IMG/VR virus record: IMGVR_UViG_3300049856_000060
Location: 1-35,982 of that record
Reading direction: 5' to 3' (one strand)
Length of the DNA: 35,982 nt
Origin: a virus
Under the pieces are notes generated by a model. The model did no database searches and was not told where the DNA came from. It worked only from the letters and a program-made list of their open reading frames with translations. A program made the position numbers and the translations under genes. Shown here one piece after another: positions 128-35,982 of the stretch. How positions within the stretch are numbered: position 1 is the first letter of the stretch; every line of letters begins with the position of its first letter.

Positions 128-157
128 AAAACACCTCCCTATTACTAAAGAAGTGTT
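125..157 (-). terminator. Intrinsic terminator after the capsid gene
   Basis: Read leftward, an 8-bp stem (arms 150-157 and 130-137, one G-U pair) closes a 12-nt loop and is followed by a run of U (A-tract 125-130 on the + strand). It lies 20 bp beyond the capsid stop codon and just before the next leftward promoter, so it separates the head operon from the accessory/glycan operon. Confidence 0.7.
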
Positions 158-178
158 TCTTATATAAAACAATATAGG

Positions 179-1111
179 CTATGAACCTATGAAACTGGTT
201 GAACCATTCAATACAACACCTGCTTCCTGCCTTAATACCGCTACACCGTAGAGTATATCTACAACTGCTAGCATACCAAGGTTTCTAACTGCATTCTCCA
301 TCTGTACTCTTATCTTATTACCTCCCTTTGTCTGTATAGCAAATCCAAAAGCTCTCTTATGGAGTAAAAGATTTCTATAAGTCAAAAGTCCAGAAACTAT
401 GTTAGTCGTAGTATACACTGGTAGACCATAAAGTACTCCCTTATAGTTTTGAGCATAACCTGCTATACCAAAGTTTCCTGTCTTAACTGGACCAGCCTCA
501 TTTACTGGACCCACAGAGTATTGCTGGTAGTATTTAACTACAGCATGTAACTGTTGCCAGTAAATGTAAGGGTGGAAGAAGAAAGCACAATCAGTAAGCT
601 TATACTTCAAGTTCTCTAGCGTATATATACCTGTTCTGATTTCTGCATCTGATAATACTGTTGCCGTGTCTCCGACTACATTAGTAGTCAAAGAAGCCCA
701 TAGTGCCGCTAAATCCTGCTCCAAAGCTTCTGCAAGAAGATTGCTAGCCTCCCTAGCATATATCTCATTCACTGAATACTTCATAGCTATCTGCTTCAAA
801 TCCTTATCACCTATAATCCATGACACATACTTATGTGTAGAGATTGTAAGTGTTACATCTCCTTGGTTAGCTAGAGATGTAGTTATTTCTTGACCTTGTA
901 CGGATTGTGTAACTACTGTAAGTGCAGCAGTATATAGATCAGGAACATGGAATATATCACTACCTTCTGTAGCAAACTCTGATAAATCTGTAACATGGTT
1001 AGCTAATACAGTATCATTGAAAGTCTTTTCATTGACAATACTAGTCCATGTCTCACTTATAACTGCCGCCAAACTTGTCCCCGTCATCGGGTTCGATGTT
1101 ACTGCAAACAT
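179..1111 (-). CDS. Major capsid protein (HK97-fold type)
   Basis: A 310-residue protein with the size, composition and position expected of a phage major capsid protein: last gene of the TerS-TerL-portal-scaffold series, directly after a charged scaffold-like gene, and ending at a strong terminator. The sequence has the usual look of HK97-fold coat proteins of small podoviruses: an N-terminal arm, a helix-rich middle around residues 100-140 where the spine helix is expected, and a C-terminal segment rich in Ala, Val and Leu with an RVQMENAVRNLG stretch. The start at 1111 has no Shine-Dalgarno, only an AT-rich leader, as for most genes here. I recognise the class from context and sequence style, not from a single diagnostic motif. 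Confidence 0.8.
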   Translation of the reverse strand: MFAVTSNPMTGTSLAAVISETWTSIVNEKTFNDTVLANHVTDLSEFATEGSDIFHVPDLYTAALTVVTQSVQGQEITTSLANQGDVTLTISTHKYVSWIIGDKDLKQIAMKYSVNEIYAREASNLLAEALEQDLAALWASLTTNVVGDTATVLSDAEIRTGIYTLENLKYKLTDCAFFFHPYIYWQQLHAVVKYYQQYSVGPVNEAGPVKTGNFGIAGYAQNYKGVLYGLPVYTTTNIVSGLLTYRNLLLHKRAFGFAIQTKGGNKIRVQMENAVRNLGMLAVVDILYGVAVLRQEAGVVLNGSTSFIGS

Positions 1112-1893: not shown

Positions 1894-2130
1894 TTATATA
1901 TGTTCATTTAAATCTGGGGGGCTTATTTCTCCTGACATTATCCTCAATTTATCAATTAAGAATACATCTAGAGCCTCTATAATACCTATCCTTACCTCAT
2001 TAGCTATCTCTGGACGGCTTTTTATAGGTGTCCTAACATCAGCGATGACACTCTGTACCCCCTTCAATATCTCTATTAAATCTTCACCGTATCGACCTTT
2101 AGCTAGCCTTTTAATCTTCTCGTCTATCAT
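1894..2130 (-). CDS. Hypothetical protein between portal and scaffold (78 aa)
   Basis: A helical, charged 78-residue protein with no recognisable domain. It overlaps the portal stop by 4 bp (ATGA-type junction), so it is translationally coupled to the portal, and it is followed almost directly by the 40-aa basic gene. Size and place fit a minor head or head-completion protein, but that is context only. An overlapping rightward ORF at 1823-2143 is a shadow. Confidence 0.65.
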   Translation of the reverse strand: MIDEKIKRLAKGRYGEDLIEILKGVQSVIADVRTPIKSRPEIANEVRIGIIEALDVFLIDKLRIMSGEISPPDLNEHI

Positions 2131-3938
2131 TGTAGTGTACTAGCCCCTGTAGGCTGTTGATTACTTAATAATAACTTAAGCTGGCTCTGTGCATCTTGAG
2201 GATTCCCTCCTGTAGGTTGTCCTTGAATAGCTTGTGGGGTCTGTTGCGGATTAGCCCCGACTAGTAAATCATAACTCTCCCCTGTATAAGCCAATATCTT
2301 TGATAATACCTTCTCTGCCCTAGGGTCTCCCTTTTGAGATAATGTCGTATACAGATTAGTTAATGTCTCTAGTTTCTTTGGTATATCTATCTCCTCACCG
2401 ACAACACTCAATAATGTAGTAAACTTATAATTATCATACAGTTTCTCTGTTATTTTGCCTGATAATAACCTTTTACTATCTAATTCAGTAGATATTTGTT
2501 GCTTAATTTCATCTATATTTATGGTATGGTTACCTAATAAAGCGGTCTTCAATCTCTCTATAAGATTAACCTCTGTCAATACCTTTTTTAATGCCTCGTA
2601 ACCTTCTTCACCTGCAAATATAGTTACTAGATGTTCCGCTGTATTATCCTTCTTGAATTGAGGTATTACCAACTCATCTATCACCCTCTTAAAGAAGAGT
2701 CCTAGCTTCTGTCTTTTTAACTTAAAGTGAGAATTAACGGCATTTGATAATATAACCCCTAGCCTAAATGGTGTACCTGACGGCAATGATTCACCTGTCG
2801 CCACTTCATAAGTAAATGACTTCTGGTCTGCGTTCTTATTCATTGTCTCCATAAAGTTATTGAAATCTGCTCCGACTCTATCGCTCATATCTACTTGCGT
2901 AATATTCCCATTGGGGGCTATCTGCATAATATCTCCATCCTTAACATCTCTTATAAGATTCTTTGCTACGCCTTCATAGGGTGATTGAAATACTTTTTTA
3001 GATGACCATAATAATTGTCTCCTATGAAGATTGACTGCAAAGTTTATACCTATCTGATTCTCAATCTGACTCTCCATCTCCCCTACAGGCATTAGTCTTC
3101 CATACTGGTCTGACCATCTAGCTTCCTCAAAAGGTCTTTGACTTATCTCCTCTATAAATAATATCTTACCCGTGGCACTCTTTTTATCACTCTTGTCTAG
3201 TGTACATATAGCTATACAGTCTACAGTATTATCATAATCTTCATCCTTAACTTTCTCTCCTTTATTTTCTTTTAGAAAAGCTACAGGGATATGACCATAT
3301 CTTTCGTAAACAGTTATCTCATCATCATAATCCATATCTAATCCATCACTATCCCACCCTTTCATATTCTTTATATCATTAAGACACATTTTATCATGCT
3401 GTATAATGAAATATTTAGCGTCATGTACGGACTTTGCGTCTTGTTGACATCTTATTTGTTGAAGCGGTACTAGGTCTATACTATCCTTAACACTTTTTAA
3501 TATAACCCAACCATACTTTGGGAAGTGTTCCACACACTTATTTATTAACTCTGAGAAATAACTATCTTTAGCCCACATAGTAAATCTCTTTTTAAAAAAA
3601 TAAGAAATCCATTCGTTGTTACCCTCCTCTGGGAAATAATTAAAATCTTTTAAATCTATATCTATCTGTTTAGAAGCTACATCTGAACGAAAACGAGAGG
3701 TATTAAGAAAAAACTTCCTCTGTCCCTCACTATCTTTTTCCCCTGCCTCAAATTTTGAATTCCAGTACAAGTCTATAAAATTTATCATCTCATTTTGAGA
3801 GAATAGATAATCTCCACCCTTCTTTGCGTCCAAATATCTAGCCGTCTCCTTACCTTGCACACCAGCAATACTAATCTTATTATTGAAATAATCGTCTAGC
3901 TCTGATTGTATTTGTGTATATAAATTAAATTTCTTCAT
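2127..3938 (-). CDS. Portal protein
   Basis: A 603-residue protein immediately downstream of the terminase genes, with the length and mixed alpha/beta character of podovirus portal proteins. The N-terminal half has Trp/Tyr-rich segments (about residues 50-150) typical of the wing domain, the middle contains a long helical stretch after the NFAVNLHRRQLLWSSKK segment, and the C-terminus (from about residue 560) is Gln/Pro/Gly-rich and probably disordered. The portal forms the dodecameric vertex through which DNA is packaged and ejected. The start at 3938 is unusual: the ATG directly follows the T-tract of an intrinsic terminator (3939-3965), so no normal ribosome site is available. Confidence 0.82.
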   Translation of the reverse strand: MKKFNLYTQIQSELDDYFNNKISIAGVQGKETARYLDAKKGGDYLFSQNEMINFIDLYWNSKFEAGEKDSEGQRKFFLNTSRFRSDVASKQIDIDLKDFNYFPEEGNNEWISYFFKKRFTMWAKDSYFSELINKCVEHFPKYGWVILKSVKDSIDLVPLQQIRCQQDAKSVHDAKYFIIQHDKMCLNDIKNMKGWDSDGLDMDYDDEITVYERYGHIPVAFLKENKGEKVKDEDYDNTVDCIAICTLDKSDKKSATGKILFIEEISQRPFEEARWSDQYGRLMPVGEMESQIENQIGINFAVNLHRRQLLWSSKKVFQSPYEGVAKNLIRDVKDGDIMQIAPNGNITQVDMSDRVGADFNNFMETMNKNADQKSFTYEVATGESLPSGTPFRLGVILSNAVNSHFKLKRQKLGLFFKRVIDELVIPQFKKDNTAEHLVTIFAGEEGYEALKKVLTEVNLIERLKTALLGNHTINIDEIKQQISTELDSKRLLSGKITEKLYDNYKFTTLLSVVGEEIDIPKKLETLTNLYTTLSQKGDPRAEKVLSKILAYTGESYDLLVGANPQQTPQAIQGQPTGGNPQDAQSQLKLLLSNQQPTGASTLQ

Positions 3939-3965
3939 AAAAAAATCCCCTCATCTATTGAGGGG
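3939..3965 (-). terminator. Terminator abutting the portal start codon
   Basis: Read leftward: a perfect 6-bp stem (CCCCTC at 3965-3960 with GAGGGG at 3952-3947), a 7-nt loop, one A, then seven U (A-tract 3939-3945 on the + strand) and immediately the portal ATG at 3938. Structurally this is a good rho-independent terminator. Placed between the terminase group and the portal, it would limit or condition transcription of the head genes unless antiterminated. Confidence 0.75.
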
Positions 3966-3994
3966 CATGAATAATATCTATGCTTGTCATTATT

Positions 3995-4186
3995 TTACTC
4001 CGTATGTCCTGTAAAGTCAAATACTCCCTTGTCCTTACTTGTCAATATCCATTGCAACTCACCTTGTTTAGAGTATTTTATCTCTACACTATCAAACAGT
4101 TTAAGTCTTCTTATCAAGTATAATATCTTAACTTCTGTATCAGTTATATTATTGAAAGTCAAAATGGTCTTTTGATGTAGAATCAT
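3995..4186 (-). CDS. Small hypothetical protein between terminase and portal (63 aa)
   Basis: A 63-residue leftward ORF overlapping the 3' end of the large terminase gene by 38 bp. Its residue pattern is protein-like (alternating hydrophobic and charged, no low complexity), and it shares the operon's orientation, unlike the competing rightward ORF at 3984-4175. No domain recognised. Its only Met is the first residue, which fixes the start. It is followed by the terminator in front of the portal, so it is the last gene of the terminase transcript. Confidence 0.6.
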   Translation of the reverse strand: MILHQKTILTFNNITDTEVKILYLIRRLKLFDSVEIKYSKQGELQWILTSKDKGVFDFTGHTE

Positions 4187-5417
4187 TGTTATTTAATAAA
4201 TGACTTAACCTAGAGCTTGTAGTATGAATTATAGGAATACTTACTCTTTTCGCTGGTAGATAGCCATGTATAGCATACCTCATAGCGTCCATTAAGTGAT
4301 TATTCTCCGGAATAGGGTCATCCTTCTGCCCATTATCAGGATATACATAAGTCTCAAATTCCGCCCTTGTATTCTTTAAATCATTATACACTAATATCCT
4401 ATTTTCATTAAGTAACTGTTGAATATGAGACACTCCATTACTTATAGAATCCTTTTTCTTTTCATAAGGTATAACATATAGACCTGTATTTATACTCGCC
4501 TCAATAATCTTCTCAGGGTTAGCACTATCTGCATACCAGCGATTAACTCTCCATTTATTCTGTAGCTTTATAGCCTGCTCTATTATCTCTGCTGTTGTCT
4601 TCTCTGTCTGATACCACTCATCTACTATTTTATATTGTCCGTCATAATATTTAATAACTATTAAGGAAGCAGGGTTTCGGAACCCCCAGTCAATACCACC
4701 CAACACTATATCCGCCCTCGTATCTTCTTTATCCCTAGGTATTATATGCCAGTTATGTACACTGTAAACAAGCCCACTCATGCGTGTAAACTCTCCCAGG
4801 TATCTTCTACCGTACTCCTCAGATCTCAATCGTATCTTTTCCTTTTCTGCAAAGTCTCTAGGAAAGTAAGGGCTGTCTACAGATGCCCAAGTAACTACTG
4901 TCAAATCTTTATCTGTGCCATCTCTCCAAGGGATATAAAAATCTTGATATAACCAACCCATGTTATAGGGGGTAGTAGTAAATAATATTTTACCTTTCTT
5001 GATAGATGTCCTTGACCTTAACACCACCCAAGCCATAAGTGAGAATTGCCCAGCTTCATCACCCCAAGCCCAATCTAGTGTCATACCTTCTACACCGAAT
5101 GGGTCATCCATAGAACGTACATAAATCATTCTACCGTCTGGAAATTCAATCTGTCCTTTCTGCTCTTTATAAAATTGCCTATACTGTGAAAACTCTTTGA
5201 AGAACTTTGGTAAAGTAGACTGTTGTAATATTTTATATGTAGGAGCACATATAAGACCAACACCATCTTTTGGCATACTAGCCAACATCATGCCCGCCCA
5301 ATAAGCCCCTAGAAAGGTCTTACCTGACTGTACCCCTGCAATCGCGGCACAATATTGAGTATTAAAACTAAAAGCCTCTAGCTGTTTAGGATGTAGATTT
5401 ATCTCTTTCGTTTGCAT
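4149..5417 (-). CDS. terL: Terminase large subunit (packaging ATPase/nuclease)
   Basis: A 422-residue two-domain motor. The N-terminal ATPase has a Walker A AGVQSGKT (residues 27-34), a Walker B ending in Asp120-Glu121 (LDWAWGDE) and a coupling motif TTTP (about 147-150). The C-terminal RNase H-like nuclease shows its acidic residues in GGIDWGFRNP, WYADSANP and HLMDAMRYA. It cuts concatemeric or circular phage DNA and pumps it through the portal. The start overlaps the small terminase gene by 32 bp. Length and motif set are normal for a complete TerL, and all catalytic motifs appear intact. Confidence 0.95.
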   Translation of the reverse strand: MQTKEINLHPKQLEAFSFNTQYCAAIAGVQSGKTFLGAYWAGMMLASMPKDGVGLICAPTYKILQQSTLPKFFKEFSQYRQFYKEQKGQIEFPDGRMIYVRSMDDPFGVEGMTLDWAWGDEAGQFSLMAWVVLRSRTSIKKGKILFTTTPYNMGWLYQDFYIPWRDGTDKDLTVVTWASVDSPYFPRDFAEKEKIRLRSEEYGRRYLGEFTRMSGLVYSVHNWHIIPRDKEDTRADIVLGGIDWGFRNPASLIVIKYYDGQYKIVDEWYQTEKTTAEIIEQAIKLQNKWRVNRWYADSANPEKIIEASINTGLYVIPYEKKKDSISNGVSHIQQLLNENRILVYNDLKNTRAEFETYVYPDNGQKDDPIPENNHLMDAMRYAIHGYLPAKRVSIPIIHTTSSRLSHLLNNNDSTSKDHFDFQ

Positions 5418-5778
5418 TATTTATAACTATTTGAGTCGGAGTGAACCCTGTCCCTTCATGCTCAAATGTATCTTTCCACCCAAAATTCTTTAGAGCAAAT
5501 ATGGCTCCACTGCCCCCTCTTTTTCTTAAATCTATCTCATAACCATTATGGACTTTCATCCTTGCATTTTTTATGAGCCGAATAATATCTTGCCCGACTT
5601 TCTCTGAATGTTCTTCATTATCGTAGAGCTTTTCATAGTTGAGAATCGTCTCCCTATCACATTCTAAAGTCATACATAATCCTGTAACAGTCCACTGCTC
5701 CTCACTAGTAGTGTTGAAATACTTATCTATATCATCTTTTAATTTTCTAGCATTTGTAAATTTATAAGGTCTTGCCAT
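5386..5778 (-). CDS. terS: Terminase small subunit (DNA recognition)
   Basis: A 130-residue protein opening with a helix-turn-helix-type segment (residues about 5-60, YKFTNARKLKDDIDKYF then TVTGLCMTLECDRETILNYE) and closing with GAIFALKNFGWKDTFEHE, a hallmark of small terminase/DNA-packaging proteins. It recognises the packaging site and loads TerL. It has its own promoter: TATAAT at 5785-5790 puts the predicted +1 exactly at the A of its ATG, so a leaderless message is likely. It overlaps terL at its 3' end. Confidence 0.88.
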   Translation of the reverse strand: MARPYKFTNARKLKDDIDKYFNTTSEEQWTVTGLCMTLECDRETILNYEKLYDNEEHSEKVGQDIIRLIKNARMKVHNGYEIDLRKRGGSGAIFALKNFGWKDTFEHEGTGFTPTQIVINNANERDKSTS

Positions 5779-5784
5779 TTATAT

Positions 5785-5813
5785 ATTATATAACTTTTTA
5801 TTTATTCTAGCAA
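5785..5813 (-). promoter_or_regulatory. Promoter of the terminase operon, predicted leaderless
   Basis: Leftward promoter with -35 TTGCTA (5813-5808), a 17-bp spacer and -10 TATAAT (5790-5785). The -35 overlaps the TAG stop of the upstream gene. Six bases separate the -10 from the ATG at 5778, so +1 coincides with the start codon. Confidence 0.65.
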
Positions 5814-6124
5814 GCTGGTACATAAACATTACTAAGGAAGTTCTTTGCCATGAAATCAATTATATCATTTCTATTCTTATCAAATCCCCCAACACTCCAG
5901 ACATCTATATCAAATGGGTTTCTTTCATCCTTGTAGTCATAAATAGACATAACAACACCATTTTTGGTATAGAAATTCCACTCACATTGAACCTTATCCC
6001 CCCCAACATTATCAGGATACCCTAACACATCACAAATATCTCTAAAACTAGCATTTAATGTCCCTTGTTTACAAGAACCATTCCTAATATCAGAATCCTT
6101 AAATCTTATTATATCTTTATCCAT
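5807..6124 (-). CDS. Hypothetical protein at the head of the leftward arm (105 aa)
   Basis: A 105-residue soluble protein, first gene of the leftward arm, divergent from the replication initiator. The middle (about residues 45-80) has a Trp/Tyr-rich beta pattern (CEWNFYTKNGVVMSIYDYKDERN) followed by WSVGGF. I have the impression of having seen this motif order in small phage proteins of unknown function, but I cannot name a family. A regulator role would fit the divergent position, but no DNA-binding motif is visible. The upstream promoter is at 6162-6189 with a leader of about 30 nt and no Shine-Dalgarno. Confidence 0.65.
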   Translation of the reverse strand: MDKDIIRFKDSDIRNGSCKQGTLNASFRDICDVLGYPDNVGGDKVQCEWNFYTKNGVVMSIYDYKDERNPFDIDVWSVGGFDKNRNDIIDFMAKNFLSNVYVPAC

Positions 6125-6161
6125 AAATTTTATATTATTTTTAATAATTTACTGTCTAATA

Positions 6162-6189
6162 ATTATATCGGATAGCCGAAGTATTGCAA
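6162..6189 (-). promoter_or_regulatory. Divergent leftward promoter
   Basis: Leftward -35 TTGCAA (6189-6184), 16-bp spacer, -10 TATAAT (6167-6162), predicted +1 near 6155. It faces the rightward promoter at 6212-6239, with a perfect DnaA box (6197-6205) between the two -35 elements. The spacer contains a small CGG/CCG inverted repeat (6169-6178). Confidence 0.65.
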
Positions 6190-6196
6190 ATATAAT

Positions 6197-6205
6197 TGTG
6201 GATAA
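6197..6205 (-). promoter_or_regulatory. Perfect DnaA box between the divergent promoters
   Basis: The leftward strand reads TTATCCACA, the consensus DnaA box. It lies between the two divergent promoters and 40 bp upstream of the initiator leader, so host DnaA could act on origin function, on promoter choice, or on both. Two of the other exact copies in the window fall inside late genes (14480-14488, 15872-15880), so a single copy is not proof. Confidence 0.5.
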
Positions 6206-6211
6206 CTTTTA

Positions 6212-6239
6212 TTGCTCGGGTAACTGGATAGTGTATAAT
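6212..6239 (+). promoter_or_regulatory. Rightward early promoter, predicted leaderless
   Basis: -35 TTGCTC (6212-6217), 16-bp spacer, -10 TATAAT (6234-6239). The predicted +1 is 6246, exactly the A of the ATG of the 23-aa leader ORF. This drives the early/replication arm. Confidence 0.7.
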
Positions 6240-6245
6240 AAATAA

Positions 6246-6317
6246 ATGAAAAAAATATACAAAAATGTCTTGCTTTTTTTACTAAAAATAATCTATAAAT
6301 TATACATAAAAATATGA
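6246..6317 (+). CDS. 23-aa leader peptide coupled to the initiator
   Basis: A 23-codon ORF (MKKIYKNVLLFLL... rich in Lys, Ile, Leu and Tyr) that starts at the predicted transcription start and ends TGA overlapping the initiator ATG by 3 bp (ATGA junction at 6314-6317). The arrangement suggests translational coupling: a leaderless start delivers ribosomes to the initiator, which has no ribosome site of its own. The peptide is amphipathic and cationic and could also sit at the membrane. It may function only as a leader. Confidence 0.55.
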   Translation: MKKIYKNVLLFLLKIIYKLYIKI

Positions 6318-7060
6318 CCAAAAATACTACCATAAAGTTACCTGATTTTATCATAATTCCTTACCCCCTTTTACAGGACGAAAAAATTACTTTAATTGAT
6401 GAAAGATTATACGGTGTTATTTACTGGATGTCAAAAATGAGGAATGAAAGATGTATCGCTTCTAACCCTACTTTAGCCTCCCTAGTTAAGACAACAGATG
6501 CCACAATTCAGAACTCTTTGACCAAATTAGAGCAAAGAGGGTACATTAAGAGAATTTATGGTGATGAAAACAGAAAAATACGGCTAGAAATAATACCTTT
6601 AGTGGTGTTTAGTAAGATAAAATTTACCCCCTCGGAGGTATCACCCACAAATGATACGGTATCACTCACAGATGATACCGAGGTATCACTCACAGATGAC
6701 CAGAGTATTAGTATATACAATACAAAATACAAGAATAAGAATAATACTAGCAAAACAGAAGTTTTGCAGGGGAAGGACTTTAATGAATTTATAGATTTGT
6801 TTAAAGACGTAAATCCGATGTACACAGATTTCTACAAAAATCGGACGGAACGAAAAGCTCTAGAAGATATGGCAGAGAAATGGGGTAGAGAAAAACTCCT
6901 CTCTGCGATTAAAGAATTACCTAGAATTATTACCATCCCTTTTGCCCCTAAAATTACCAAGCCAAGTGAACTCAGAAGGGACATCGGAAAATTGATAGCT
7001 TTTTATCAACAAGAAAAAAACAAAAATAAAAAGATAGATAATAAAATTGCATTTACATGA
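6314..7060 (+). CDS. Helix-turn-helix replication initiator (lambda O-like role)
   Basis: A 248-residue protein. Residues about 10-100 form a winged-helix domain of the phage replisome-organiser type (CIASNPTLASLVKTTDATIQ, then KLEQRGYIKRIYGDENRKIRLE as the wing). A Ser/Thr/Asp linker (about 110-145) is encoded by three iteron-like repeats, and a C-terminal domain (from about 150) has a helical FIDLFKDVNPMY...RTERKALEDMAEKWG pattern seen in small phage initiators. It probably binds the iterons inside its own gene and recruits host replication proteins. It is the first main gene of the early arm, coupled to a leader ORF and overlapping the next gene by 4 bp. No helicase or primase gene follows. 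Confidence 0.75.
   Translation: MTKNTTIKLPDFIIIPYPLLQDEKITLIDERLYGVIYWMSKMRNERCIASNPTLASLVKTTDATIQNSLTKLEQRGYIKRIYGDENRKIRLEIIPLVVFSKIKFTPSEVSPTNDTVSLTDDTEVSLTDDQSISIYNTKYKNKNNTSKTEVLQGKDFNEFIDLFKDVNPMYTDFYKNRTERKALEDMAEKWGREKLLSAIKELPRIITIPFAPKITKPSELRRDIGKLIAFYQQEKNKNKKIDNKIAFT
6637..6701 (+). repeat. Three iterons inside the initiator gene: candidate origin
   Basis: Three direct repeats start at 6637, 6658 and 6682, with common core GGTATCAC-CACA-ATGA. The middle unit is itself a dyad (GGTATCA, 8 bases, TGATACC at 6658-6679). Unit spacing is 21 and 24 bp, so the reading frame is kept and the repeats encode a disordered Ser/Asp/Thr linker. An AT-rich stretch follows (about 6703-6755). Lambda has the same design: iterons in the middle of gene O followed by an AT-rich unwinding region. 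The function is inferred from this likeness. Confidence 0.65.
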
Positions 7061-9825: not shown

Positions 9826-9992
9826 GCCAGAGACCCAGAAGACTCGAAGGCAGAATCGTCTACAACAAGACATTGATGAGGGCAGAGTTCACCCCGACGA
9901 ACATACCTTTGTATTTACAAGAAATGCAGAAGTATATGATAGGGGACAGGGTTACTATGATTATAAACAAAGTTAAACATAAGAGAGTATAA
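9819..9992 (+). CDS. Small basic hypothetical protein (57 aa)
   Basis: A 57-residue ORF (MLSQRPRRLEGRIVYNKTLM...) overlapping the preceding gene by 7 bp (ATGTTAA). The second half has a regular pattern (IPLYLQEMQKYMIGDRVTMI) typical of a folded beta/alpha mini-domain. No family recognised. The stop codon overlaps a TATAAT (9988-9993) that may act as a weak promoter for the next gene. Confidence 0.6.
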   Translation: MLSQRPRRLEGRIVYNKTLMRAEFTPTNIPLYLQEMQKYMIGDRVTMIINKVKHKRV

Positions 9993-10008
9993 TAAATAAA
10001 AAAATAAA

Positions 10009-10335
10009 ATGAACATACCAATCAGAAATGGTGATATAAATTTTCACCCAGTAGATAAAAGAGAAGGGGATATAATAGAGAATAAAGATAATAAGTTTGT
10101 AGTAGGCTATGGTGAGACTACAGGACATAAGCATGTCTTAACTGTAGATAGACCACAAGACATGATTATCAGTAGAGATAGTCTAGGTAATTATTACTTT
10201 GAAATGCTAGAAGACGGTATATTAACACATGAGGAGCATAAGACTATAAAGCTACCTAAGGGGATATACAGAAAGTTCCAAGAGGAAGAGGTAGACCATT
10301 TTGCTGGCTCTGTAACAAGAAAGGTAATAGATTAA
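10009..10335 (+). CDS. Conserved small protein paired with the DUF6745-like gene (108 aa)
   Basis: A 108-residue beta-rich protein with the pattern VGYGETTGHKHVLTV, an L.HEEHKTIKLPKGIYRKF segment and a C-terminal RKVID. I recall small proteins with GEATGHAH and HEEH..I.LP.G.Y motifs next to DUF6745-type genes in phages and actinobacteria. The pair here is 4 bp apart (10335 to 10340), which supports a shared function, though none is established. The two His-containing motifs could bind metal. It has no Shine-Dalgarno. Confidence 0.65.
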   Translation: MNIPIRNGDINFHPVDKREGDIIENKDNKFVVGYGETTGHKHVLTVDRPQDMIISRDSLGNYYFEMLEDGILTHEEHKTIKLPKGIYRKFQEEEVDHFAGSVTRKVID

Positions 10336-10339
10336 ATAT

Positions 10340-12055
10340 ATGATAGAAAGAACACCAACAAGAGCTACAGGAGGTATCACTGAAAAAGAGAAAATAGAAA
10401 TGGAGGGTATATCAAGAAAGTGGATTGCCAATGCTTTTAAGACTGGTCGAACTGATAAAGGGAAAATAACTGAAGCTATAAAAATGTTATACAAAGTATC
10501 AGGATTAAAAGAACCTAGAGTCGTAGTCGTCCCTAGCCCATTAGTAATGGCTTACGCTTATGGTATATCGGCAGGTATATGGCATTTGAGAAGGACACAA
10601 AAAGGTTCGGAAATAAGGTCGGCAACAGATTCGGCAACATATTCGGCAACAAGGTCGGCAACATTAATAGATTCGGAAATAAGGTCGGCAACAGATTCGG
10701 CAACATATTTGGCAACATTGGCAACATATTCGGCAACAAGGTCGGCAACATTAATAGATTCGGAAATAAGGTCGGCAACAAGGTCGGCAACAGATTTGGC
10801 AACATTGGCAACAAGGTCGGCAATAGATTCGGCAACAAGGTCGGCAATAGATTCGGCAACATATTCGGTAATGACGGCAACAAGGTCGGCAACATTAATA
10901 GATTCGGAAACATATTTGGCAACAGATACGGCAACAAGGTCGGCAACATCGGCAACACATTCGGCAACAAGGTCGGCAATAGATTCGGAAACAAGGTCGG
11001 CAACATCGGCAACATATTTGGAAACAAAGTGGGCAAGATATTTGGCAATAACGTCAACAGATATGGCAACAGATTCGGAAACATATTTGGCAACATATTC
11101 GGCAATGGATTCGGTAATAACGGCAACAGATTCGGCAACAGATTCGGAAACAGATTCGGAAACAAGGTCGGAAACAAGGTCGGCAACATATTCGGCAATA
11201 TTGGCAACAGATTCGGAAACAAGGTCGGCAATAGATTCGGAAATAGATTCGGCAACAGATTCGGAAACAGATTCGGAAACAGATTCGGAAACAAGGTTAA
11301 AAAAAGATTCTATAATAGATATTATAAATCTCTTCGTCTCGAAAGAACATAAAAACTTTGTAATTGAATGTATTATAAGATGGGAAAATGTATATCAAGG
11401 AGGAAATATGTGGCCATCTCACCCAGCATATTTAGAAGCCTGCCGTGATGTCCTAAAATTAGATGGTTTAGATTGTTGGGATAAATATAAAGCATGGGAG
11501 GATTCAGCAATACATGGAGGTTTTCGTGTAATGCACGAAGAATTTTGTATAGTATCTGATTTTCCAGATATATTAAAGGTAAATAAAGATAATCAACCTC
11601 ATAGTGATACGAGTCCAAGTCATAGGTGGTCGGACGGCTTTGAAATATACCATCTTAATGGTGTCCGATTTGAGAAAGACTTATGGGAGAAAGTAGTATC
11701 CAAGACTATGCCTTTTAAGGATATACTAGCTATAGTAGATGTAGACCAGAGGACACAAGCAATGAAGTACGGGGACTTCCATGAGTTTGCTGATAATCAG
11801 GAGGCTAGTAAGATTGATAGTTATATAAAGTCCGATATAGACGGCAATGATGTAACCTATGAATTATGGAGATTCCCAGCAGGTGGTGTCTTCAGTAAAG
11901 ATGTCCACTATATGTACTATAACTGCCCTTCTACTAATAATAAGTATGCTACAGGTGTTTGGGAGTGTTCTAGGGTATCAGAAGCCATGGCAAGGAAGCA
12001 GGGCATAACAGAAGAGCAATGGAAGCTACAGGTACCATTAGTGCATGAAAGCTAA
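10340..12055 (+). CDS. DUF6745-like protein with a repeat-encoded Ser-Ala-Thr insert
   Basis: A 571-residue protein in three parts. Residues 1-88 form an N-terminal domain (EAIKMLYKVSGLKEPRVVVV, then YGISAGIWHLRR). Residues about 90-319 are an almost pure run of four-residue repeats (SATD, SATY, SATR, SETD). Residues about 330-571 form the conserved C-terminal domain with IIRWENVYQGGNMW, CWDKYKAWEDSAIHGGFR, a SHRWSDGFEIYHLNGVRF segment and a C-terminal CSRVSEAMARKQGITEEQW. The end segments match, to my recollection, DUF6745-containing proteins, whose members often carry a low-complexity Ala/Thr stretch at this point. Function is unknown. The other two frames across the repeats are open by chance of the repeat unit. 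Confidence 0.7.
   Translation: MIERTPTRATGGITEKEKIEMEGISRKWIANAFKTGRTDKGKITEAIKMLYKVSGLKEPRVVVVPSPLVMAYAYGISAGIWHLRRTQKGSEIRSATDSATYSATRSATLIDSEIRSATDSATYLATLATYSATRSATLIDSEIRSATRSATDLATLATRSAIDSATRSAIDSATYSVMTATRSATLIDSETYLATDTATRSATSATHSATRSAIDSETRSATSATYLETKWARYLAITSTDMATDSETYLATYSAMDSVITATDSATDSETDSETRSETRSATYSAILATDSETRSAIDSEIDSATDSETDSETDSETRLKKDSIIDIINLFVSKEHKNFVIECIIRWENVYQGGNMWPSHPAYLEACRDVLKLDGLDCWDKYKAWEDSAIHGGFRVMHEEFCIVSDFPDILKVNKDNQPHSDTSPSHRWSDGFEIYHLNGVRFEKDLWEKVVSKTMPFKDILAIVDVDQRTQAMKYGDFHEFADNQEASKIDSYIKSDIDGNDVTYELWRFPAGGVFSKDVHYMYYNCPSTNNKYATGVWECSRVSEAMARKQGITEEQWKLQVPLVHES
10606..11297 (+). repeat. Degenerate 12-bp tandem repeat array within the DUF6745-like gene
   Basis: About 690 bp built from 12-bp units such as TTCGGCAACAGA, TTCGGCAACATA and GTCGGCAACAAG, richer in G and C than the surroundings. 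A higher-order motif (ACATTAATAGATTCGGAAA) recurs at 10661, 10748 and 10892, showing duplication of larger blocks. The unit keeps the frame, giving four-residue Ser-Ala-Thr repeats. Such an array should expand and contract by slippage or recombination. Confidence 0.9.
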
Positions 12056-13197: not shown

Positions 13198-13363
13198 AAT
13201 AAAAAACTATATAGCAAGTAAATTATACACCCCTCCAGATATAGCTTCTTGGGAGGTTAAAAGTAAAGTAAATTGCGAGAATTGTGGCAGTAAAGATACT
13301 GTGTACAATATGAGAAATTGCAGTTTAGTGTGTACTAGGTGTACGAAGTATAAAGTGTTATAA
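13187..13363 (+). CDS. Mini zinc-ribbon protein (58 aa)
   Basis: A 58-residue ORF with a helical basic N-terminus (MLNKIKNYIASKLY) and a zinc ribbon: Cys30-Cys33 and Cys49-Cys52 (CENCG ... CTRC), with an extra Cys45. It overlaps the previous zinc-domain gene by 11 bp and is the last clear gene of the early operon. Its stop codon overlaps an extended -10 promoter motif. Likely nucleic-acid or protein binding. Confidence 0.65.
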   Translation: MLNKIKNYIASKLYTPPDIASWEVKSKVNCENCGSKDTVYNMRNCSLVCTRCTKYKVL

Positions 13364-13364
13364 T
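13356..13364 (+). promoter_or_regulatory. Extended -10 promoter, predicted leaderless
   Basis: TGTTATAAT is an extended -10 (TGn plus a perfect TATAAT at 13359-13364). No convincing -35 is present. The predicted +1 (13371) is exactly the A of the ATG of a 21-codon ORF. Confidence 0.45.
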
Positions 13365-13370
13365 ATCCCC

Positions 13371-13436
13371 ATGGCGATTTGGAAGAGGAGGTATAGGGTT
13401 ACTCCACCAACCAATGAGAAAAATAAAATAACATAA
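13371..13436 (+). CDS. Possible 21-aa peptide at the end of the early arm
   Basis: A 21-codon ORF (MAIWKRRYRVTPPTNEKNKI plus one residue), cationic, starting at the predicted +1 of an extended -10 promoter and ending 80 bp before the early terminator. Support is only the exact promoter-to-ATG spacing. It may instead be part of a noncoding transcript. Confidence 0.3.
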   Translation: MAIWKRRYRVTPPTNEKNKIT

Positions 13437-13515
13437 CATAATAAATAATATTGAATTGATAATAAATATACTGAAGGTGATAAATCAAGGACTTAATTGA
13501 CCCGCCATGCAAAAG

Positions 13516-13540
13516 ACATCTGTAAAGATGTTTTTTGTTT
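13516..13540 (+). terminator. Rightward terminator of the early arm
   Basis: ACATCT (13516-13521) and AGATGT (13526-13531) form a 6-bp stem with a GTAA loop, followed by a T-rich run (13531-13540). Upstream A residues extend the stem. It is the first good rho-independent terminator after the early genes. Confidence 0.75.
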
Positions 13541-13545
13541 TATGA

Positions 13546-13680
13546 TATACTTACTTCGCGACCAGTAGTTCGCAAAGCACTCGCAAGAGAAATGAGAATC
13601 CCCTCTTCAATAATAGCTTTTAGGGGGAGATGAGAGAAGACCTCTCCTGTTTATAAGACCTCCTAGGAGGTCTTTGTCGT
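13546..13680 (+). ncRNA. Candidate structured small RNA
   Basis: An extended -10 (TGATATACT, 13543-13551) is followed by about 120 bases with several stems: TCCCCT/AGGGGGA around 13600-13625, GAGAG/CTCTC (13632-13636 with 13642-13646), and a perfect 20-bp palindrome (13655-13674, AAGACCTCCT and its complement) followed by a weak T-run. AAGACCTC occurs twice (13637-13644, 13655-13662), so GAGGTCTT (13667-13674) can pair with either copy. No known RNA family is recognised. Confidence 0.3.
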
Positions 13681-13681
13681 T

Positions 13682-13711
13682 AAAAAGAAGCCCCTAGCTT
13701 GTGGCTAGGGG
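13682..13711 (-). terminator. Leftward terminator of the late arm
   Basis: CCCCTAGC (13691-13698) and GCTAGGGG (13704-13711) form a perfect 8-bp stem with a 5-nt loop. Read leftward it is followed by CTTCTTTTT (13690-13682). It closes the lysis end of the leftward arm and insulates it from the early genes. Confidence 0.8.
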
Positions 13712-13797
13712 TATAGGTAGGATTGTTGATGTAACATGACTCCTTGGAAGAGAAGTGTATGTGATTCAAACAACACTATGTATTATATCATACCTAC

Positions 13798-13986
13798 CTA
13801 TGCTTTATAATCCTGTGAAGGATTGACATGGAAGTAAGTGGCTAGGACACTTAATATTAAGTCCACTATCTGTAGATACTCCGCAGGGATAGAACCCTTA
13901 ATAGCCCCTGTACCATTGATAATAAACATTACTGCGAGTGTATAAAATGTCCTACTTTTGAATATCATTAAAAATTTATCTTTCAT
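13798..13986 (-). CDS. Holin-like small membrane protein (62 aa)
   Basis: A 62-residue protein (MKDKFLMIFKSRTFYTLAVM...) with two hydrophobic segments (about residues 10-25 and 35-52) and a C-terminal YFHVNPSQDY motif. Small phage proteins with 'SRTF.T..VMF' and 'YF.VNPSQ' patterns near endolysins are common and usually treated as holin or lysis-associated. The ORF is open up to 14112, but the upstream part is Cys-rich, spans a terminator hairpin (14007-14032) and does not fit, so I choose the Met at 13986. It is the last gene of the leftward arm. Confidence 0.6.
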   Translation of the reverse strand: MKDKFLMIFKSRTFYTLAVMFIINGTGAIKGSIPAEYLQIVDLILSVLATYFHVNPSQDYKA

Positions 13987-14006
13987 ACTACAAGTATACA
14001 CCATAA

Positions 14007-14032
14007 GAAAAGGCGTGCAACATGTACACACC
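14007..14032 (-). terminator. Weak leftward terminator/attenuator
   Basis: Read leftward, GGTGTG (14032-14027) and CACGCC (14017-14012) form a 6-bp stem with a 9-nt loop, followed by TTTTCTTAT. It lies between the zinc-finger gene and the holin-like gene. A strong Shine-Dalgarno (AAAGGAGGT, about 14058-14050) just upstream has no well-spaced start codon, which is odd. Confidence 0.4.
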
Positions 14033-25889: not shown

Positions 25890-26602
25890 ATATTATCCAT
25901 TACATAATCAGCTACATGCATATTAGCAGGAAAGTTTTCAGCAAACCTCCTAGAGAAACTTTCTTTAATCATCTTTTCATACCTAGCCCATTCTATCTCT
26001 AGAAAGTTTACTACTGGTAGAGAGTTTATCTTTGCATACATAAGAGCCATGTATACAGCTATTGCCTCGTGGAAGGCTGTATCAAAGCCCGGTACTTTAG
26101 TAGTATCCGTTGTAGCAAAATATGATATATCTCTAGTATAATATACCTTAAGCCCGTCTGTAACATTTACATTCGCTGGAGGGTATATAATTATAGAACC
26201 TCCTATAAGTCTATAATAAAGAGGACTACTACTAACAGAAAGAAATTGTGTTTCAGAACCTTGCCCCTGAATCTGCTCAAGTGTTACAGGAGACATTTTA
26301 TACCATACCCCTGAAGAAGTTAATTTATACTCTACCCCTTTTATGTATGATGTATCTGTAGGTACATTATAATTAGTCTGACCACTTACAAGATTAGTAG
26401 TAGCCTGTGGAAGTGTTGTAAAGTTTCCATCATCATACCCCCAACCCCCATAACTCTCATGTATCCATGATTGTATTATTCTACCTGCCTGATTTGCATA
26501 TAAAGTTTTCTCTGCTATAGGAAATGAAACAGAATCTGATTTGCTCAATTTCTCTGCTAATGTTACCAAGTCTTGGTTTGTAGCGTGTGAATTATATTGC
26601 AT
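25886..26602 (-). CDS. Head-to-tail connector/adaptor (P22 gp4 or T7 gp11-like role)
   Basis: A 238-residue protein, first gene of the tail operon. N-terminal helical segment (residues 1-45), a beta middle with LVSGQTNYNVPTDTSYIKGV and PLYYRLIGGSIIIYPPANVN, YYTRDISYF, and a C-terminal helical part starting VPGFDTAFHEAIAVYMALMY (about 175-195) and ending in YEKMIKESFSRRF. This order is characteristic of podovirus head-tail adaptors. It is preceded by a promoter and an intrinsic terminator within its leader. Confidence 0.7.
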   Translation of the reverse strand: MQYNSHATNQDLVTLAEKLSKSDSVSFPIAEKTLYANQAGRIIQSWIHESYGGWGYDDGNFTTLPQATTNLVSGQTNYNVPTDTSYIKGVEYKLTSSGVWYKMSPVTLEQIQGQGSETQFLSVSSSPLYYRLIGGSIIIYPPANVNVTDGLKVYYTRDISYFATTDTTKVPGFDTAFHEAIAVYMALMYAKINSLPVVNFLEIEWARYEKMIKESFSRRFAENFPANMHVADYVMDNI

Positions 26603-26612
26603 ATTTATATAT

Positions 26613-26636
26613 AAAAAATACCCCTTTAGGGGGTAT
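26613..26636 (-). terminator. Terminator in the leader of the tail operon
   Basis: Read leftward: ATACCCC (26636-26630), loop CTAAA, GGGGTAT (26624-26618), then a run of six U (26618-26613), followed by the connector ATG at 26602. It lies about 20 nt after the predicted start of transcripts from the promoter at 26664-26693. Such a leader terminator fits attenuation or antitermination, like the lambda pR'-tR' pair. Confidence 0.75.
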
Positions 26637-26663
26637 CAATGAAAAACATCTATTGATAAAGAT

Positions 26664-26693
26664 ATTATACTCTACTAGGGTAACATGTGTCAA
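26664..26693 (-). promoter_or_regulatory. Strong promoter of the tail operon
   Basis: -35 TTGACA (26693-26688), perfect; 18-bp spacer; -10 TATAAT (26669-26664), perfect; predicted +1 near 26657. It lies in the gap between the aminotransferase stop (26713) and the connector gene. It is the only promoter here with a full TTGACA. Confidence 0.8.
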
Positions 26694-26712
26694 TAATAGC
26701 TTTATTCCATAT

Positions 26713-27753
26713 CTAATAAATGCTCTGACATATATACCTTATATTATCTTTCGTCAAACTATCATACACTGGTAAATATAACCCTCTTAATGACCATTTA
26801 TAGGCATTAAGTTTATATAACCTACTATCATCACCTATTGTCTCTTTATACATAGGTTGTGTAGACATAGGCTTGAAGAAATACCTACTATCCACACCCC
26901 TATCCTTTAGTCTAGCCTTAATTATATCTCTCTTATCGCCACAATTTATATCATACATCCACAATACATCTCTTTTTGGCATGAGATACTCATGTGGTAA
27001 ATAATCATTATACATCTGTTCAATATCTCTCCTTCTCTCTAATACATTATCTATCCTCTCTATTTGAGCTAGCCCAATACTAGCTTGAATATTTGTCATT
27101 CTAAAGTTATGCCCAATCTTCTCATGTATCAATGTTCTATCTTTATCAAAGTATAAAGAAGAAAACTTTCTTATCTCCTCTGCTAGTTTCTTATCATCAG
27201 TCAAACACATACCCCCTTCTCCTGTAGTTATAATCTTATTACCTTGAAAAGAAAAACATGCTATATCTGAATGAGGGATAATTCCATGTGCTTCTGCCAT
27301 ATCCTCCACTATGTATAAATTATACTTTTTTGCTATTCTCTTTATCTCTTTCATATTACATGCCCGACCATAGATATGTACAGGCATTATAACTTTAGTG
27401 TTAGGTGTTATCTTCTCCTCAACCTTATTCATATCCATATTAAGCCTATCATCACAATCTACAAATATAGGTTTTGCTCCTGTATATGTAACTGCCCAAG
27501 CTGTAGCTATCATAGTAAATTCAGGCACGATAACCTCATCACCCTTCTTAATTCCTAAAGCTAATAGAGCTAAATACATAGCTGTAGTACCTGAATTACA
27601 AGACACGCCATACTTATAACCATTATAACTAGCCCACTTATTCTCAAAGTTATCTATAAAATACCCAGAACCGGATATATATCCTTCGTCTATAGCCTGA
27701 TTAAGATACTTTTTTTCTAATTTAGTTATTGATGGTTTTGCTAGAGGTATCAT
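26713..27753 (-). CDS. DegT/DnrJ/EryC1-family sugar aminotransferase
   Basis: A 346-residue PLP enzyme that transaminates a nucleotide-bound keto-sugar. Visible features: PLAKPSIT start, EGYISGSGYFIDNFENKWA, SCNSGTTAMYLAL (phosphate-binding), DVIVPEFTMIATAWAV-type strand, VHIYGRACNM, the Asp in VEDMAEAHG and PLP lysine Lys173 in FSFQGNKIITTGEGG, and a C-terminal GVDSRYFFKPM motif. With the linked GDP-mannose dehydratase the likely product is a 4-amino-4,6-dideoxy sugar such as GDP-perosamine, although the exact carbon is inference. Complete in length, catalytic residues present. Confidence 0.9.
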   Translation of the reverse strand: MIPLAKPSITKLEKKYLNQAIDEGYISGSGYFIDNFENKWASYNGYKYGVSCNSGTTAMYLALLALGIKKGDEVIVPEFTMIATAWAVTYTGAKPIFVDCDDRLNMDMNKVEEKITPNTKVIMPVHIYGRACNMKEIKRIAKKYNLYIVEDMAEAHGIIPHSDIACFSFQGNKIITTGEGGMCLTDDKKLAEEIRKFSSLYFDKDRTLIHEKIGHNFRMTNIQASIGLAQIERIDNVLERRRDIEQMYNDYLPHEYLMPKRDVLWMYDINCGDKRDIIKARLKDRGVDSRYFFKPMSTQPMYKETIGDDSRLYKLNAYKWSLRGLYLPVYDSLTKDNIRYICQSIY

Positions 27754-28094
27754 AGTAACGGCTCATCTAATTTATATGTATCAAGACTATAATCTGTCCC
27801 CTTCCTTACACCTTTTGTCATGGTTATCAATATAGACTTTTTTAATGCTTTATATGCATGTGGTACTCCTTTAGGGTGGACTATTAGTGTATTCTCTTTT
27901 ATTATCTCTATACCCTTATCTGTAGCCATCTTCAATTGTCCCTCAAGAAGATAGTCATATTGTATTGTATCTTTATGATAATGATTACCCCTCAAAGCTC
28001 CTTTATTGAAAGTAACATAAGTAACCGCGTCTATATCTACCCCTATCAATAAATCCTTTATTATACCTCTTTTATCCTTGTGATTGTGTGTCAT
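27750..28094 (-). CDS. Cupin sugar-modifying enzyme (RmlC/FdtA-like)
   Basis: A 114-residue single-domain cupin: beta strands, the metal-site-like motif RGNHYHKDTIQYDYLLEG (residues about 35-52) and a second half with HPKGVPHAYKAL. It overlaps both neighbours (methyltransferase by 23 bp, aminotransferase by 4 bp). In such clusters cupins isomerise or epimerise keto-sugar nucleotides (WxcM/FdtA or RmlC types). Which reaction it catalyses cannot be told from sequence alone. Confidence 0.75.
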   Translation of the reverse strand: MTHNHKDKRGIIKDLLIGVDIDAVTYVTFNKGALRGNHYHKDTIQYDYLLEGQLKMATDKGIEIIKENTLIVHPKGVPHAYKALKKSILITMTKGVRKGTDYSLDTYKLDEPLL

Positions 28095-29265
28095 ATATTT
28101 TTATCTCTGGTAATGGTACTATCCACTTACCTTTATAACCTTTGTTATTATTCATAATCTCATTTGCAAAATTCCAAGCTAGTATAATTGCATAATCAGG
28201 TTGTTCTTCTATTAGTTTACTATCAGGGAATATCTCTATATTAGTGAGAGGTGTATACCTTCCTATCTTCAAGTGAGACTTCTCTGTCGCAAAAGATATA
28301 TATTTTCCTATACCCGTACTATTTAATAATGTATTACCTTTGGCGGGTGTAGAAACACAAGCTATCTTATTCCCCTTAGAAGATAAATCAGATATTAAAC
28401 TACATAAAGATTCTCTATGTTGTGAACATTTATTCCCCCATTCTATGAGAAAATCTTTTGTATAAGTATCTTCTGTAAAGTTTAAGTCTCCAGAAAATAC
28501 ACACGGCTCCTTGCACATATACACTCTAAAACCTCCTCCATGTATAGCCACCTTCTCTACTTTAAATATACTAAACCCATGTTTCTCTACAAACTTCTTA
28601 ACGGGATTAAGAGATAAATAAGATAGGTGTTGATGATAGACTGTATCGTATTCTAAACCTTTTATAAAATCTCCAAAGTGAGGGGATTCAAATACAAATA
28701 CCCCTTCATCTGTGAGCATACTTTTTATATCTACCATTAGAGTATCTAAATCATCTACATGAGCAAATACATTAGTCATAGTGATAATATCAAACTTCCC
28801 CTTATCTTTTAAGATATTATAAGAGAAAAAGTTATTTATTGTTGTGATACCTTTACTATTTGCTATATCTGTTACCTCCTTACATGGGTCTATTCCTGTA
28901 ACTTCAAACCTTTTATCTTTAAACTTACTCAATAAAGTGCCATCATTACTTCCTATATCCAATACTTTACCTTTCTTTATCTCTGAATTTGTAATGACTG
29001 ATTCTGCAAACTCCGTCCAATGGCTATCGGCTGTGCTAGTTATAGATGATTCATATAGATAATCTTTTGTATATAAATAACTAGCGTCTACTATATAAGA
29101 CAACTGTCCTAGCCCACAATCTTCACACATCATGACTTTCAATGGAAACTTATCAGGTGATTCATTTTTCTCTTTAAGAAACTGGTCGCTATGAGGGTGT
29201 TCCCCTAAGTCTAGAAACATATACAACTTATCACTTCTACACATTCTACAATTTTTCTTTTCCAT
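28072..29265 (-). CDS. Sugar C-methyltransferase (three-domain TcaB9/TylC3 type)
   Basis: A 397-residue enzyme. N-terminal zinc domain (Cys6, Cys9, Cys47, Cys50; CRMC and CEDCG), SAM-binding Rossmann fold with VLDIGSNDGTLL (about 101-112) and IDPCK, the catalytic-type YHQHLSYLS motif near residue 213, and a C-terminal Methyltransf_14-like domain with GGGFRVYM and VSTPAKGNTLLN. This is the full domain set of enzymes that add a carbon methyl branch to a nucleotide keto-sugar. It sits between dehydratase and cupin in an overlapping operon. Confidence 0.88.
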   Translation of the reverse strand: MEKKNCRMCRSDKLYMFLDLGEHPHSDQFLKEKNESPDKFPLKVMMCEDCGLGQLSYIVDASYLYTKDYLYESSITSTADSHWTEFAESVITNSEIKKGKVLDIGSNDGTLLSKFKDKRFEVTGIDPCKEVTDIANSKGITTINNFFSYNILKDKGKFDIITMTNVFAHVDDLDTLMVDIKSMLTDEGVFVFESPHFGDFIKGLEYDTVYHQHLSYLSLNPVKKFVEKHGFSIFKVEKVAIHGGGFRVYMCKEPCVFSGDLNFTEDTYTKDFLIEWGNKCSQHRESLCSLISDLSSKGNKIACVSTPAKGNTLLNSTGIGKYISFATEKSHLKIGRYTPLTNIEIFPDSKLIEEQPDYAIILAWNFANEIMNNNKGYKGKWIVPLPEIKIYDTQSQG

Positions 29266-30184
29266 ATTTATTTTTTACCATTAAATTTGCTAATAATTTC
29301 CCCTTAACCTTCGGCTCCCAACCTAATTTATCCCGAGCCTTGGTACTATCTCCACATAATACAGGCACATCATTTGGTCTTTTATACTCTTTATCTATGA
29401 TTATCTTAATCTCTTTACCATAAGCTTTAGATACCCATCCTACAAATTCCTTAACAGAATGTGTCTCCCCCGTAGCGATAACATAATCATCAGGCTTTTC
29501 TTGTTGCAACATTTTCCAAGCCATTTCCATGTATTCTGGAGCATATCCCCAATCCCTCATCGTATCAACATTGCCTAGATGAACCTCTTCATTTATGGCT
29601 TCGTTCACTATCTTCTTTGTAACAAAATTATCACCCCTTCGTGGGCTCTCATGATTGAATAATATCCCATTACATATAAACATACCAAAAGCATCTCTAT
29701 AGTTCTTGCATATCTGATACCCATATAGTTTTGCTGTACCATACGGTGATATAGGGTCTTTTGGTGTATTCTCATTTTGTGCCTCACCCTCAAGTCCAGA
29801 GAATAATTCAGAAGTAGAGGCTTGATATATTCTCACCTTCTTTTCCATTCCCAACACCCTTACACTTTCTAGAATATTAAGTACCCCCACACCTGTAGCT
29901 TGTGCGGTATACCACGGTGTCTCCCAAGATATACCCACATGACTCTGTGAAGCTAGGTTATATATCTCATCAGGTTGTACACTCTTTAATATCCATAAAA
30001 TAGAAAAAGGGTCTATCATATCCCCGTAGTGATAATATATCTTATTTCTTAAGTGGTCTATATTCTGTTTATTAAAAGTAGATGTCCTCCTTATCATTAC
30101 ATGCACCTCATATCCTTTTGATAGGAGTATTTCTGATAGGTAACTCCCGTCTTGCCCTGTAGCTCCTGTTATAAACGCTTTCAT
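29246..30184 (-). CDS. gmd: GDP-mannose 4,6-dehydratase
   Basis: A 312-residue short-chain dehydrogenase/reductase. GATGQDGSY (residues 7-15) is the NADP site typical of Gmd; YHYGDMIDP, NLASQSHVGISWETP, the catalytic Ser/Thr-Ser-Glu (about 123-126, STSELF), and Tyr148xxxLys152 in SPYGTAKLYGYQ follow, then LFNHESPRRGDNFVTKKI, a signature of this enzyme. It converts GDP-mannose to GDP-4-keto-6-deoxymannose, the common precursor of fucose, rhamnose and perosamine. It is slightly shorter than many bacterial homologues, but the motifs are complete. Confidence 0.93.
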   Translation of the reverse strand: MKAFITGATGQDGSYLSEILLSKGYEVHVMIRRTSTFNKQNIDHLRNKIYYHYGDMIDPFSILWILKSVQPDEIYNLASQSHVGISWETPWYTAQATGVGVLNILESVRVLGMEKKVRIYQASTSELFSGLEGEAQNENTPKDPISPYGTAKLYGYQICKNYRDAFGMFICNGILFNHESPRRGDNFVTKKIVNEAINEEVHLGNVDTMRDWGYAPEYMEMAWKMLQQEKPDDYVIATGETHSVKEFVGWVSKAYGKEIKIIIDKEYKRPNDVPVLCGDSTKARDKLGWEPKVKGKLLANLMVKNKYGKEKL

Positions 30185-35944: not shown

Positions 35945-35982
35945 AATTAAATTATACCACTAATATATTATCATGCAAATAA
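35856..35982. repeat. Right copy of the 127-bp identical terminal repeat
   Basis: Exact duplicate of bases 1-127. It contains the promoter and first 29 codons of the gene at 35528-35944 plus a non-coding 38-bp end. Joining the two copies gives a circle of about 35,855 bp in which the capsid terminator (125-157) is directly followed by this promoter. Confidence 0.95.
35951..35978 (-). promoter_or_regulatory. Strong promoter of the accessory/glycan operon, predicted leaderless
   Basis: -35 TTGCAT (35978-35973), 16-bp spacer, extended -10 TGGTATAAT (35959-35951, TATAAT at 35956-35951). The predicted +1 is 35944, exactly the A of the downstream ATG. It is the promoter that follows the capsid terminator on the circle. 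Confidence 0.75.

Follow-up and report, generated by a model that had tools for sequence, protein, structure and literature searches.

Leaderless ('TA-led') bacterial genes have been described by Zheng et al. 2011 (PMC3160421) and Nakagawa et al. 2017 (PMC5397173), and the established way to recognise them in a genome is a box lying about 12 bp upstream of the start codon (PMC3160421, PMC5397173). Their features, namely a TANNNT/TATAAT box at this distance, often preceded by TG in low-GC genomes, and no Shine-Dalgarno (SD) motif, recur in the phage described here, where we found -10 boxes 6-8 nt before the ATG, a -35 or extended -10 element and no SD, and where a leaderless start is predicted. 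The known cases, however, come from Actinobacteria, Deinococcus-Thermus and others, phages of the Candidate Phyla Radiation (CPR, Patescibacteria) are not treated in those studies, and a word search of PMC5397173 returned neither Saccharibacteria nor candidate divisions. The present signal differs further in being phage-borne and conserved behind the terminator of a capsid gene.

Phage lambda provided the first leaderless mRNA to be found, according to PMC3160421, and the predicted phage mRNA starting at AUG would resemble it. In lambda this concerns a single repressor message in an SD-using host, whereas here several operon heads are involved, structural genes included, and the lineage is mostly SD-less. 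Flavobacterium johnsoniae (PMC6847099) resembles the CPR in having SD-less genes although the anti-SD of the 16S rRNA is retained, but there a Kozak-like context is read on leadered mRNA. A literature search, weak as evidence owing to its incomplete coverage, returned no report of leaderless genes in CPR bacteria or phages; as leaderless genes are an established feature of bacteria, this would be a known mechanism in an apparently unreported lineage.

Our reading, to which we assign a probability of about 0.8, is that this probable CPR phage produces leaderless transcripts from sigma-70-type promoters, in a layout matching that of its presumed hosts.

Phage genome

The window, i.e. the whole stretch of 35,982 nucleotides analysed, is IMG/VR record IMGVR_UViG_3300049856_000060, in which bases 1-127 recur at 35856-35982; owing to this terminal duplication the record represents a circular phage genome with 35,855 unique bases. 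Its G+C content is 34%. The late genes run leftward, from 6124 through the small (TerS) and large (TerL) terminase subunits, the portal-position gene, the capsid gene and the 35944 gene to 14443, and the early genes, headed by a replication initiation protein, run rightward from 6246/6314.

4149-5417, minus strand: TerL
2127-3938, minus strand: portal-position gene
179-1111, minus strand: major capsid protein gene (PHROG major head protein, E 5e-11)

Against named phages, neither megablast with 20 kb of the genome nor tblastn with the capsid gave a match, and TerL reached about 27% identity at best; an Rfam search over the whole window gave no match either. Additionally, about 700 bases at 10579-11305 (plus strand) consist of degenerate 12-nt units encoding FGN/VGN-type repeats inside a 571-aa ORF (10340-12055), a repeat protein with no Pfam match. 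A run of sugar-nucleotide/glycan genes at 26713-32494 (minus strand; by sequence look of NAD epimerase, aminotransferase and methyltransferase types) sits between structural genes, and a similar run is present in the G201 prophage introduced below.

Candidate leaderless starts

The pattern TATAAT-N6-ATG has five matches in the window, corresponding to four distinct sites, as the match at 87-101 is the 35942-35956 site again because of the repeated ends.

5776-5790, minus strand: site 5778
6234-6248, plus strand: site 6246
13359-13373, plus strand: site 13371
35942-35956, minus strand: site 35944

All four TATAAT boxes named in the original prediction were thus present, each precisely six bases before an ATG, and the TTGC-type -35 elements claimed for three of them were recovered as TTGCTA-17-TATAAT (5778), TTGCTC-16-TATAAT (6246) and TTGCAT-16-TATAAT (35944). 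Site 13371 is without a -35 but reads TGT-TATAAT, and site 35944 additionally reads TGG-TATAAT. The claimed scarcity of SD motifs was borne out as well, with any SD-like 4-mer in only 4 of the 38 window genes.

Site 35944 belongs to the gene after the capsid gene, whose product carries a WFFER-DG motif and whose start is very probably leaderless.

130-157, minus strand: terminator-like hairpin AACACTTC/GAGGTGTT plus T-run where the capsid gene ends, abutting the promoter
35973-35978 (= 118-123), minus strand: -35 box TTGCAT, 16-nt spacer to the -10
35951-35956 (= 96-101), minus strand: -10 box TATAAT of the 35944 gene promoter, extended (TGG precedes)
35528-35944, minus strand: 138-aa gene following the capsid gene, its start predicted to be leaderless; L135 and L002 have homologues of 42-44% identity

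Site 5778, at which a leaderless start is probable, belongs to the small terminase subunit.

5808-5813, minus strand: -35 box TTGCTA, 17-nt spacer
5785-5790, minus strand: -10 box TATAAT, separated by 6 nt from the ATG at 5778
5386-5778, minus strand: small terminase subunit (gp3 type; PF16677, 4e-10), predicted leaderless

Site 6246 stands at the head of the rightward operon, and a leaderless start there is reasonably likely.

6212-6217, plus strand: -35 box TTGCTC, 16-nt spacer
6234-6239, plus strand: -10 box TATAAT, separated by 6 nt from the ATG at 6246
6246-6317, plus strand: 23-aa ORF, predicted leaderless; its stop overlaps the next start (ATGA, 6314-6317)
6314-7060, plus strand: gene for the replication initiation protein (phrog_270, 4e-11), the first large one in the rightward operon

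The ATGA overlap suggests that ribosomes are loaded at the short ORF and re-initiate at the replication gene, to which this ORF would be translationally coupled. In L134, the only relative of the replication gene, this leader ORF is absent and an ordinary ATGA-coupled gene lies upstream instead. The promoter region (6230-6261) recurs at 9984-10015 (plus strand; 81% over 32 nt) before the 10009 gene, and in this copy the ATG is 15 nt away from the TATAAT.

Site 13371 is doubtful as a coding start.

13356-13364, plus strand: extended -10 TGTTATAAT before the ATG at 13371, without a -35
13371-13436, plus strand: 21-aa ORF, reality doubtful

The chances are about even that this promoter instead serves a small RNA, about 165 nt long, which stops at the terminator-like hairpin 13509-13538, the ATG being incidental: the ORF spans merely 21 codons and the hairpin lies downstream, whereas the 6-nt spacing of the TATAAT to an ATG speaks against a small RNA, as does the lack of an Rfam match, though such absence says little. 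The surrounding convergent, gene-poor region (13436-14020, plus strand) holds several hairpins, the terminator-like one at 13509-13538 and others up to 13711, and TGATATACT, an extended -10, follows hairpin 13509-13538; the region resembles one or two small RNAs and has no Rfam match.

Technical validation

The original prediction held that the coincidence of four such spacings is hard to explain otherwise, and here it failed: the four spacings alone lie inside the range of shuffled sequences, in which the five matches compare with a mean of 2.4 (sd 1.5) and at least five were attained in 10 of 100 shuffles. The raw count therefore proves nothing by itself and was rejected as evidence, and TATAAT is not enriched in the window (109 vs 116). 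At the ATG starts of genes of at least 50 codons (n = 49), TATAAT at gap 6 was found twice against 0.19 expected from shuffled upstream regions (P = 0.015), and with one mismatch allowed four times against 0.89 (P = 0.014).

A second promoter element, taken as either TTG in the -35 position (spacer 16-18 nt) or TG separated from the -10 by a single base, is present on 13 of 108 TATAATs. Gap-6 ATG sites make up 4 of these 13 and 0 of the 95 others (Fisher P = 1.3e-4, a somewhat flattering value because the test was devised after the elements were known at three sites), and the comparison relies on bases lying outside the TATAAT-N6-ATG pattern. Counting against a leaderless reading, other strong promoters in the window (7416, 8320, 6167, 3997, 26669) have leaders of 37-119 nt.

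Relatives of the phage

A family of uncultivated phages related to this one was found via searches with TerL (44-61% identity) and the capsid (45-74%). The order terminator-promoter-ATG after the capsid gene is present in the window, L135, L002, L207, L214, L218 and L004/L221, with the following sites.

Window: TGG-TATAAT-TTAATT-ATG
L135: TGT-TATAGT-GAAATT-ATG
L002: TGT-TATACT-TACCTCA-ATG
L207: TATAAT-GTATATAT-ATG
L214: TGG-TACAAT-TTACGC-ATG
L218: TGT-TATAAT-AATACCT-ATG
L004/L221: GATAAT-ATAAAC-ATG

Since hexamers and discriminators vary among these sites, the distance is the conserved feature. A -10 box (at least 5 of 6 matches) at gap 6-8 was found at 8 of 18 post-capsid loci, which are phages or prophages that are related and hence not fully independent, against a shuffle mean of 0.85; eight such loci were attained by none of 20,000 shuffles, and no -10 hexamer stands at gaps 9-16 before the post-capsid gene in the 18 loci. 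The remaining 10 homologues are without the spacing, mostly with a hairpin and no promoter, or with neither. The expectation that related phages keep the spacing thus held at post-capsid loci and not at the terminase gene, where the nearest relative, L067, has TATAAT 18 nt before the ATG of the small subunit and other TerS relatives have no box.

The same layout stands at portal-gene starts in L135 (TGG-TATAAT-6), L216 (TTGACA, TGA-TATAAT-7) and L004/L007 (TGT-TAAACT-7). As a single-sequence query the portal protein found no relatives, and its homologues were found on contigs retrieved by other genes. Over 296 genes of the family, a -10-like hexamer at gap 6-8 occurs in 18, vs 7.5 in shuffled sequences (maximum 15 in 500 shuffles).

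Several further features were observed around these genes. In the window, a promoter, a 50-60 nt leader and a terminator-like hairpin (CCCCTCAATAGATGAGGGG-ATTTTTTT) abutting the portal-position ATG lie at 3936-4020 (minus strand); promoter, leader and hairpin likewise precede the portal-position gene in L002 (2700-2796) and L210 (3265-3354), and in L215 a hairpin with a T-run stands close to this ATG (about 200-250). A similar promoter-terminator-gene order, with the terminator preceding the gene, is known from lambda pR'-tR', which works by antitermination; as an 11-codon ORF in the window stops (TAG) in the hairpin loop, attenuation is also possible. The same promoter-leader-hairpin order is seen at the 26602 gene (26595-26700, minus strand), with a TTGACA/TATAAT promoter (26669), a 61-nt leader and the hairpin ATACCCCCTAAAGGGGTAT plus T-run immediately before the ATG. 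Further, the capsid gene of L002 (5479-7082) is interrupted, probably by an intron or intein: the insert has a LAGLIDADG/HNH-like ORF (6233-6703).

Probable host

Members of the phage family are present in two Patescibacteria genomes, and from these relatives only we infer that the host is most likely a CPR bacterium. The only good cellular TerL match (L090, 43%) is in Candidatus Andersenbacteria RIFCSPHIGHO2_02_FULL_46_16, where the element carries a large serine recombinase and adjoins chromosomal genes, among them those for tRNA-Thr and a class I tRNA synthetase. When 380 genomes of that phylum were searched with the capsid, a second, full-length match appeared on contig 5 of G201 (E 2e-125), in which the genes after the capsid resemble those of the window (MRIIGFMV..., ...FVYVRR..., sugar epimerase and aminotransferase types). 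This prophage of the family in a CPR genome (L236) also has GroES- and GroEL-like genes (2008-3826). A deltaproteobacterial TerL match (L091) was dropped as a host clue, with 29% identity and the signal absent from 7 such genomes.

Signal in CPR genomes and alternative explanations

TATAAT-like hexamers were counted per distance before the ATG starts of the longest ORFs in the Andersenbacteria MAG (G001) and three further genomes of the same phylum. At gap 6 they precede 17 genes in G001, 22 in G006, 17 in G013 and 7 in G018, vs means of 2.3, 2.9, 3.7 and 0.6 at other gaps; G201 has 7 vs 0.9. Across 59 genomes of the phylum, TGNTATAAT-N6-ATG occurs 278 times vs 24 for the reversed pattern, and TGNTATAAT with an 11-nt gap to the ATG 76 times vs 38. 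Of the operon-head genes in G001, G006, G013 and G018, about 8-23% have a -10 at gap 6-8. SD-like motifs before starts are hardly above the control stretch in G001, G006 and G018 and are above it in G013 (53 vs 25), and the 16S 3' end retains the anti-SD CACCTCC in all five CPR genomes (terminus GGATCACCTCC). In the controls, E. coli and two Firmicute phages (of Staphylococcus and Thermoanaerobacterium), no -10-like hexamer stood at gaps 5-8.

That the promoters are real and a short leader remains (transcription starting at -1 to -5), making the messages near-leaderless rather than strictly leaderless, is the alternative that survives best, though we consider it rather unlikely: the gap does range from 6 to 8 nt across homologues and CPR genomes, but its most frequent value is exactly 6 in the phage homologues and in three of the four CPR genomes studied in depth, which places the A of the AUG at +1.

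The TATAAT-like box could also be an AT-rich, Kozak-like translation signal of the Bacteroidetes type (Flavobacterium, PMC6847099) and no promoter at all. The family lacks SD motifs, which are rarer before the starts of its 296 genes (34) than in the control stretch (50), and therefore needs another start signal; A-rich bases precede many starts, and in a Cellulophaga phage used as a control, gaps 5-8 are slightly overrepresented (2, 2, 1 and 2 vs 0.65). In Bacteroidetes, the promoter consensus differs. Among 63 pooled gap-6 starts of CPR genomes, T and G stand at -15/-14 (57% and 56%) and T at -35 (63%), which are marks of a promoter and not ribosome contacts; additionally, the sites sit behind terminators, and in three of the four CPR genomes it is chiefly operon heads that account for the gap-6 excess, all of which makes a pure translation signal improbable. 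The weakest explanation, that the spacing arose by chance in an AT-rich genome and transcripts start elsewhere with ordinary 5' UTRs, agrees with a raw site count inside the shuffle range and with TATAAT not being enriched, and is highly improbable in view of the association of the sites with second promoter elements, the conservation of the spacing in post-capsid homologues and the host-wide gap-6 peak.

Leaderless transcription thus best explains sites 35944 and 5778 and accounts well for 6246, while 13371 may be a small-RNA promoter; the basis of this reading has shifted from the coincidence of four spacings to the second promoter elements, the conserved distance and the peak in the genomes of the presumed hosts. 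Promoter elements and their spacing, the conservation of the latter and its enrichment in CPR genomes are direct observations, and they suggest that the phage and CPR bacteria both make leaderless messages needing no ribosome-binding site.

Proposed mechanism

Read from sequence, transcript ends and translation from a 5' AUG would come about as follows. Sigma-70-type promoters (TTGNNN and/or TGn, 16-17 nt, TATAAT) would position the start at or within about 2 bases of the A of the AUG, as polymerase starts 7-8 bases past the -10 and hence on or beside the AUG. Such promoters would head operons, the mRNA beginning at the AUG of the first gene, and the host ribosome (presumably the 70S, or the 30S with initiator tRNA) would accept this 5'-terminal AUG without an SD. 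Downstream genes would be reached via translational coupling or other SD-independent initiation. Judging from the layout, the terminator and leaderless promoter after the capsid gene may keep the following operon apart from the abundant capsid message.

Significance

We lean towards the broader view that Patescibacteria start operons leaderlessly as a major mode, with the anti-SD retained, and that their phages share this grammar, including the post-capsid terminator-promoter unit, which would provide the following gene with a transcript of its own. The CPR represent a large, mostly uncultured share of bacterial diversity with reduced ribosomes. If these bacteria and their phages do commonly begin at the AUG, gene-start prediction in CPR genomes could be corrected, the fixed distance from -10 to ATG would be a usable marker linking phages to such hosts, and the choice of start codons by reduced ribosomes would become a testable question.
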